This document shows, in pieces, positions 6,161-8,261 of a stretch of 64,000 nt of DNA. The notes under the pieces were generated by a model. It searched no databases, was not told the DNA's origin, and saw nothing but the letters and a program-made list of their open reading frames with translations. The DNA lies in the NCBI GenBank assembly GCA_944392965.1, contig CALXYM010000002.1:124001-188000 (forward strand). Reading direction: 5' to 3'. This DNA comes from an uncultured Spirochaetaceae bacterium. GTDB taxonomy: Bacteria; Spirochaetota; Spirochaetia; Sphaerochaetales; Sphaerochaetaceae. The first letter of the stretch is position 1; each line of letters begins with the position of its first letter. The translations under genes and the position numbers were made by a program.

Positions 6161-6526
6161 TCAAGCCTCGACCTGAAGGTCCTTTATGACCTTACCGCCG
6201 ACAACGGTCTCATCCAGAATCTTCTCAACATCGCTTTTTTTGACAGCGGCGTAAGTGACCAGGCCTAAATCGGGAGTATGAATCTGAATCGCAGGCTCCT
6301 TTACCCCCTCGATAGCCCCTGACTGCGTGATAATGACATCATCAAGCCCTTTCTTCTCCGCAAGGGATGCAAATTCATCAAGAATGACCTTTGCTCCACT
6401 CTCAATGCCACTTGTTCCCATGGCAACAACGATGTGCCTCTTTTTTCCTTCAATGTTACGCTTTTTCATCTTGACCTCTTCACGAGCTCTAATGCTATGA
6501 AGATCTTCAACTGTAAGCTTCGCCAT
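6161..6526 (-). CDS. hndB: HndB-like thioredoxin-fold protein with no cysteines
   Basis: The 121-residue product has the fold pattern and operon place of HndB, a small thioredoxin-like ferredoxin subunit of NADP/NAD-linked [FeFe] hydrogenases. Conserved features remain: IVVAMGTSGIESGAK near residue 32 and VIITQSGAIEGVKEPAIQI near 64. The positions that carry 2Fe-2S cysteines in relatives (GTCG and GCxGxC) are Ser39, Ala71 and Val75, and the whole protein contains no cysteine. It therefore cannot bind the expected cluster and may be a structural or assembly subunit. It sits 1 nt after the ATPase gene and 16 nt before hndC. Confidence 0.85.
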   Translation of the reverse strand: MAKLTVEDLHSIRAREEVKMKKRNIEGKKRHIVVAMGTSGIESGAKVILDEFASLAEKKGLDDVIITQSGAIEGVKEPAIQIHTPDLGLVTYAAVKKSDVEKILDETVVGGKVIKDLQVEA

Positions 6527-7453: not shown

Positions 7454-7479
7454 ATATCTTCTCCTTTCAATTCTCATAT

Positions 7480-7532
7480 ATAATAGCTAAAAAATTACTG
7501 ATTAGCAATTGAAAGTAACATATTTTATATGT
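7480..7532 (-). promoter_or_regulatory. hnd operon promoter with upstream 15-bp palindrome
   Basis: Minus-strand TTGCTA (7503-7508), 17-nt spacer, TATTAT (7480-7485). Just upstream lies a perfect palindrome with arms ACATAT/ATATGT around TTT (7518-7532). No exact Rex consensus is seen, so the palindrome is only a candidate binding site. Confidence 0.55.
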
Positions 7533-7564
7533 AGAGAACATGTATTCACTTAAACACTGTTTTA

Positions 7565-7602
7565 TTGACACATAAATAAAAATAATATAATGTGATTCAC
7601 AT
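7565..7602 (+). promoter_or_regulatory. rex promoter with palindrome over -10 and start site
   Basis: TTGACA (7565-7570), a short 15-nt spacer and TATAAT (7586-7591). The palindrome ATGTGA-T-TCACAT (7590-7602) begins in the -10 box and covers the predicted start site. Its half-sites TGTGA/TCACA equal those of known Rex operators but lack the usual central spacer, so autoregulation is plausible rather than shown. Confidence 0.55.
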
Positions 7603-7619
7603 ATTTTGGAGATCCCGAC

Positions 7620-8261
7620 ATGAATAGTGATATGCTTACAAGAATTACAAGATACTATCGTGCACTTAATAGACTGAGAGCCATCGGTTTAGAGAAGGTT
7701 TTCGCACATAATCTTGCAGACGCGGCAGGAGTGAACGCGGTAATAGTAAGAAAGGATTTCTCCCTTTTAGGAATACATGGGCAAAAAAGAGGAGGATATG
7801 ACATTCTCCCTCTCGTGACGAAACTTGGAGATCTGCTAGGTAAGGGGGAGCCTCAGAATGTGATAATAGTAGGCTGTGGAAGAATTGGAAAGGCACTCAT
7901 GCACTACTCAGGTTTCGAACCTGACGGGATAAGAATCGTCGCAGGATTTGATACCGATCCCCTCGTATATTCTGACGCGTCCCACCCCATTCCGCTCTAT
8001 CCGATGGGACGGCTTGAGGAGGTAATCGAAGCACTGGATGTGAAGATTGCAATAATCACGGTACCAGAGAATGCAGCGGCGGACTGTTTTCAAAAACTGA
8101 TTGACGCTAATATCAAAGGAGTGTTAAACTTCTCTCCGGTTACACTTAAGAGCCAGAATATTGATGGCGAATTACGTCCAATAGTACACAACATCAATAT
8201 TGCACTGGAGCTTGAGCAGATCTTCTATGAGATCCAGTATCCTAAGAAGATTAAAGACTAA
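7620..8261 (+). CDS. rex: Redox-sensing transcriptional repressor Rex
   Basis: The 213-residue protein has an N-terminal winged helix (RITRYYRALNRL, then DAAGVNAVIVRKDFSLLG, typical of Rex) and a Rossmann NADH-binding domain with VGCGRIGKALMHY near residue 84. Rex senses the NADH/NAD+ ratio and represses fermentative and hydrogenase genes when NAD+ is high. Length is the family norm. GGAG (7608-7611) supports the ATG at 7620. It diverges from the hnd operon with 166 bp between the starts, making that operon the evident target. A tRNA-Ala gene begins 2 nt after its stop codon. Confidence 0.95.
   Translation: MNSDMLTRITRYYRALNRLRAIGLEKVFAHNLADAAGVNAVIVRKDFSLLGIHGQKRGGYDILPLVTKLGDLLGKGEPQNVIIVGCGRIGKALMHYSGFEPDGIRIVAGFDTDPLVYSDASHPIPLYPMGRLEEVIEALDVKIAIITVPENAAADCFQKLIDANIKGVLNFSPVTLKSQNIDGELRPIVHNINIALELEQIFYEIQYPKKIKD

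Follow-up and report, generated by a model that had tools for sequence, protein, structure and literature searches.

The window, a 64,000-nucleotide stretch of DNA from an uncultured Spirochaetaceae bacterium, encodes a protein of the HndB/HydD family that has none of the three cysteines found in most of its relatives, and that is a recurrent cysteine-less variant of a known accessory-protein family. We consider it probable, with good though not full confidence, that the gene specifies a working, metal-free member of this family, accessory to HydABC, in which the clusters of HydA, HydB and HydC alone carry the electrons. The protein would keep the fold of a thioredoxin-like [2Fe-2S] ferredoxin with no capacity for a cysteine-ligated cluster, so that it could not itself pass on electrons by way of one, and it would most likely serve the bifurcating [FeFe]-hydrogenase in docking, assembly or regulation, electron flow passing solely through the clusters of the three core subunits. 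In most relatives, a strict set of three cysteines is maintained and, whenever lost, lost as a block.

The hydrogenase operon is complete and has the order hydC, HATPase-like gene, hndB, hydB and hydA, with rex adjoining it in divergent orientation (Table 1). The earlier note had already regarded all four subunit genes as kept, which agrees with the completeness of the operon, although one more gene, the HATPase-like one, is present. In alignments with solved HydABC subunits, HydA, HydB and HydC match through their cluster motifs, and the closest PDB chain to the HydB of the window is 7q4v_B, the HydB of Acetobacterium woodii HydABC. These three subunits with their cluster motifs, including the FMN subunit, are those of a HydABC-type [FeFe]-hydrogenase, and the operon is predicted to encode an electron-bifurcating enzyme of this type. 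The genome also encodes HydG, an H-cluster maturase. The HATPase-like small protein gave no Pfam match above the cut-off, and its gene neighbours hndB in many loci. In the intergenic region between rex and hydC (7478-7619), no Rex-operator-like site was found at one mismatch from a consensus.

Table 1. Coordinates of hndB, the other genes of the hydrogenase operon and the adjoining rex in the window.
Feature	Position	Strand	Remarks
HydC/HndA, thioredoxin-like [2Fe-2S] subunit	7477-6989	minus	ligand cysteines present
HATPase-like small protein, 153 aa	6989-6528	minus	weak HATPase_c_3 match, E 0.023, below cut-off
HndB/HydD-like accessory subunit	6161..6526	minus	121 aa, 0 Cys, Ser39 and Ala71 at Cys columns
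HydB/HndC, FMN/NAD subunit, 595 aa	6144-4357	minus	N-terminal four-Cys [2Fe-2S] and C-terminal 2x[4Fe-4S] domains kept
HydA/HndD, [FeFe]-hydrogenase catalytic subunit	4357-2600	minus	H-cluster motifs; NF040763, 807.8 bits, cut-off 765
Rex, redox-sensing repressor	7620-8261	plus	NF003996, 196 bits, cut-off 138; divergent from operon

The hndB open reading frame runs on the minus strand from an ATG at 6526 to 6161. The earlier note gave these coordinates correctly, and its count of no cysteine in 121 residues is also right; read on the plus strand, the span is interrupted by stops. No Pfam or NCBIfam model names the protein above any cut-off, and a comparison with PF01257 (thioredoxin-like [2Fe-2S] ferredoxin) gave no match up to an E value of 10. 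The protein has neither the four cysteine ligands of a PF01257-type ferredoxin nor any of the three in the GTCGI / TGCxGxC motif of most HndB family members. It does share with the family the MGTxGI..G, G..(..)EP and Tyr positions that are invariant there, along with full-length similarity to stand-alone HndB-like proteins, and its gene has the characteristic place in a HydABC operon, after hydC and before hydB. On the sequences compared, the three-cysteine motif is common in the HndB family but not defining, and cysteine-less members recur. The genome holds one copy of HndB, the sole other match being the N-terminus of HydB, so that no cysteine-bearing double exists and a second HndB of that kind elsewhere in the genome was rejected; a plasmid search returned two records of little use.

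That a protein of 121 residues is free of cysteine is unremarkable by itself: at the cysteine frequency of the window (1.24%), the probability is about 0.22, or about one protein in five, and 10 of the 64 genes of the window, crudely called, encode no cysteine at all. The signal is positional and is not chance: of the 295 unique relatives, 245 have cysteine at all three sites and the other 50 at none of them, with no protein showing one or two. As for the residues placed at ligand sites by the earlier note, Ser39 and Ala71 do fall at cysteine columns, whereas the assignment of Val75 is only approximate. In the clade of the window, the loop from Gly70 to Glu77 is shorter by one residue, and 35 of the 50 cysteine-less proteins consequently show a gap at the third cysteine column.

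The relatives derive from 311 stand-alone proteins collected in five samples (Spirochaetota, 78 loci; genome contigs, 80 loci; Bacillota; Thermodesulfobacteriota; and the genus of the window), of which 295 are unique. Matches in long ORFs, corresponding to HydB N-termini, were excluded from the HndB counts, and the rows removed beforehand were a HydB domain (L002), three rows with their best match in an ORF of at least 500 aa (L231, L292 and L311) and duplicates. The genome-contig sample is biased, since its search pattern restricted the first site to Cys or Ser and only the best 80 matches were taken; the profile and single-protein searches were free of that restriction. The Bacillota rows comprise the 30 best, every second of 118 further listed places and a few others. 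Two cysteine-bearing rows (L078 and L079) fall beside the HydB-type domain in the tree, which marks them as four-cysteine ferredoxins, not HndB, and brings the count to 243 against 50 among 293 proteins. On either count, the view of the earlier note that these residues are cysteine in most relatives is upheld, and the homologue alignment it had called for, which could have revealed that most members lack them, placed only the said 50 in that class.

Cysteine-bearing and cysteine-less unique proteins number 55 and 20 in Spirochaetota, 66 and 7 in the genome-contig sample, 98 and 0 in Bacillota, 26 and 2 in Thermodesulfobacteriota, and 0 and 21 in the genus of the window; members of this genus also occur in the Spirochaetota and genome-contig samples, and the own-genus count leaves out 13 further matches. 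The replacing residues vary by cysteine-less group (Ser-Ser-Asp, Ser-Gly-Asp, Ser-Glu-Ser or Val-His-Asp), and in the genus of the window the first site is occupied by Ser or Ala and the second mostly by one of the same two residues, with the shortened loop at the third. The HndB with Val-His-Asp (L294, from the Thermodesulfobacteriota sample) represents a lone cysteine-less lineage outside the spirochaetes. A conserved histidine, at position 107 of the window protein, is found in 243 of the 245 cysteine-bearing and 36 of the 50 cysteine-less proteins, the remaining 14, window HndB included, having Thr. Its presence in cysteine-less HndB and also in the four-cysteine HydB domain led to its rejection as a fourth ligand, and suggests that its role is probably structural.

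The cysteine loss is not unique to this lineage, as the same change recurs in several others. Parsimony required 5 changes of cysteine state on a FastTree phylogeny of all 295 proteins and 6 on an IQ-TREE phylogeny of HndB (100 rows, 93 of them from the HndB samples), the HndB trees being built on about 120 columns and containing many open forks. For the adjacent HydB, a phylogeny of 81 rows required 7. These figures support several independent block changes of the triad, and by themselves they do not tell loss from gain. In the HndB tree, the genus of the window forms one clade (99*) within a cysteine-bearing spirochaete clade, and the cysteine-bearing L009, from a sister genus, adjoins it from outside. 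In the HydB trees, this cysteine-bearing sister genus (L009, L087 and L088) is placed inside the cysteine-less group (96/90 in one of these trees). A constraint keeping the cysteine-less rows together in the HydB tree was not rejected (p-AU 0.12), so that a single loss in the genus is allowed; alternatively, the triad may have been lost twice or regained, or HndB may have been transferred. The three sister-genus loci (in L009, positions 1501-1872) each have a cysteine-bearing HndB beside a HydB of the cysteine-less group, a combination that could reflect regain, HndB transfer or parallel losses.

The fold, which the earlier note took to be intact, is indeed predicted to be kept, and its motifs are conserved. 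The AlphaFold2 model of window HndB (pLDDT 82.1) and that of a cysteine-bearing relative (pLDDT 86.9) show the main elements in the same order, and both match thioredoxin-like [2Fe-2S] ferredoxins as well as HydB, NfnB and StnB chains. In Foldseek comparisons with 1m2a and 1f37, the window model gave E values of about 1e-6 and TM-scores of 0.75-0.81 over the length of the ferredoxin, and it also matched the HydB chain of A. woodii HydABC. At the gene level, hndB was found in 43 of 48 genomes of the genus, with no stops within the matched frames, and rough Nei-Gojobori counts over 269 unsaturated pairs from 31 loci across the genus gave a median dN/dS of 0.19 and a maximum of 0.45, values that indicate purifying selection. 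Sequencing error or a pseudogene was rejected on the basis of the genus-wide open frame, the genus-wide absence of cysteine at the sites and this dN/dS. That HndB function has been lost in the genus and the cysteines have gone along with it, in a decaying gene, is very improbable: the His-to-Thr change at position 107 and the shortened loop would fit such decay, but the open frames, the presence in most genomes of the genus, the selection and the other fold motifs speak against it.

The earlier note had interpreted the protein as a ferredoxin-like subunit turned cluster-free, with a change in the electron path of the complex. Window HndB indeed most likely holds no cluster, judging from its sequence, although non-cysteine side chains may hold a metal; it is the former cluster that lacks support. 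According to our reading of the alignments, the three cysteines of the relatives correspond to ligands two to four of the four-cysteine domain; Gly, Ala, Ser or His stands in place of the first. Because there are three cysteines and not four, and the published accounts describe HydD and HndB as cofactor-free, a loss of a cluster is inferred. StnB displays the same three-cysteine motif in the alignment, and its structural report gives it one [2Fe-2S] cluster, B2, and lists none for the N-terminal domain, where side chains were not refined (PMC10482914). The plant mFDX-like protein, which has three of the four cysteines, is reported to bind no cluster (PMC10069907). That an electron-carrying HndB cluster was lost here, altering the electron path, thus appears unlikely, in spite of the three cysteines of most relatives and the nesting of the window's clade among cysteine-bearing proteins. 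HydB retains its N-terminal four-cysteine site (C-x4-C and C-x3-C) in 49 of 49 loci with a cysteine-less HndB, leading us to reject a compensating loss there, and in 216 of 222 cysteine-bearing loci. In A. mobile, this thioredoxin-like domain of HydB holds the [2Fe-2S] cluster B5, and the hydD gene product is reported as absent from the purified holoenzyme (PMC8880783). HydABC-type complexes have been solved or purified without HndB, as found in published work and in the PDB, where a profile search (E up to 0.01) matched HydB, HydC and HydA domains and ferredoxins, and no HndB chain. With the HydB and HydABC motifs intact, complexes obtained without HndB and the reports of a cofactor-free protein, nothing supports a changed electron path. 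As separate observations, HydB-like N-terminal domains without some or all cluster cysteines exist among the cysteine-bearing loci (6 of 222; L064, L068, L072 and L119), and the three HydB-sized ORFs (616-620 aa) that hold a best HndB-type match (L231, L292 and L311), with the three-cysteine motif in L292, resemble NfnB and StnB.

A more serious contender, though possible rather than probable, is that HndB/HydD is no subunit but a maturation or regulatory factor acting with its HATPase-like neighbour, and perhaps Rex; the triad of most relatives would then serve in metal binding or redox sensing, and some lineages could do without it. Feng et al. assume a role in maturation and/or regulation for HydD, HydP and HisK (PMC8880783), and the absence of HydD from the A. 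mobile holoenzyme points the same way. Among the 291 loci whose upstream sequence is long enough, a homologue of the HATPase-like gene lies next upstream of hndB in 165 (39 of 50 cysteine-less and 126 of 241 cysteine-bearing). Conversely, HydD of A. woodii is described as an extra hydrogenase subunit predicted to be without cofactor (PMC6288185), and HndB as the fourth subunit of Hnd (PMC10084766), so the published cases disagree on co-purification with the hydrogenase. We infer for the window an accessory HndB that would bind the complex. Regarding the ordinary family members, the strictness of the all-or-none pattern is an argument that the three cysteines work together, as a metal or cluster site; the pattern suggests a site functional in most of the family, and fits poorly with the published label of no cofactor. 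It can tentatively be proposed, as a suggestion we would not favor over its negation, that the triad is an overlooked metal or [2Fe-2S] site, completed by a non-cysteine or partner ligand, that serves in sensing or gating off the main electron wire and was lost as a unit in several lineages.

Among known systems, HydD of A. woodii and HndB of S. (Solidesulfovibrio/Desulfovibrio) fructosivorans are, like the window protein, small fourth proteins whose genes accompany those of a bifurcating [FeFe]-hydrogenase; their assignment to the same family is drawn from operon place, size and description, and not from alignment. The A. woodii hyd operon is described as five genes, hydA1 to hydE, with hydC first and a histidine-kinase-like HydE comparable to the HATPase-like protein of the window. 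All 98 unique Bacillota HndB proteins sampled possess the triad that window HndB lacks. The N-terminal domain of HydB, NfnB and StnB, and the Aquifex aeolicus ferredoxin 1f37, share fold and profile similarity with HndB; cysteine ligands number four in the HydB domain and in the ferredoxins, NfnB and StnB align with the three-cysteine HndB motif, and window HndB has none. Another comparable case is the mitochondrial mFDX-like protein of plant complex I, in which, as its authors describe, a ferredoxin fold was kept as a structural part after loss of cysteine ligands, and whose remaining three cysteines are also absent from most algal forms (PMC10069907). It belongs, however, to a different, eukaryotic ferredoxin family, and its authors inferred progressive cysteine loss, in contrast to the absence of partial forms among the 295 HndB relatives. 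In the literature covered by our search, which left most subscription papers outside, few papers mention HndB, and none on cysteine loss in HndB or HydD was found.

Little is understood of HndB/HydD, a part of the bifurcating hydrogenases that many operons encode and that is said to be without cofactor. The all-three-or-none pattern across the 295 relatives suggests a site that is functional in most of them and that can be given up all at once, with the clusters of HydABC unaffected. If the triad is indeed an overlooked site, the cysteine-less lineages, that of the window included, would be natural knock-outs of the HndB metal or cluster site. Since sister genera supply matched natural versions with and without the cysteines, cluster binding by HndB is thus directly testable.
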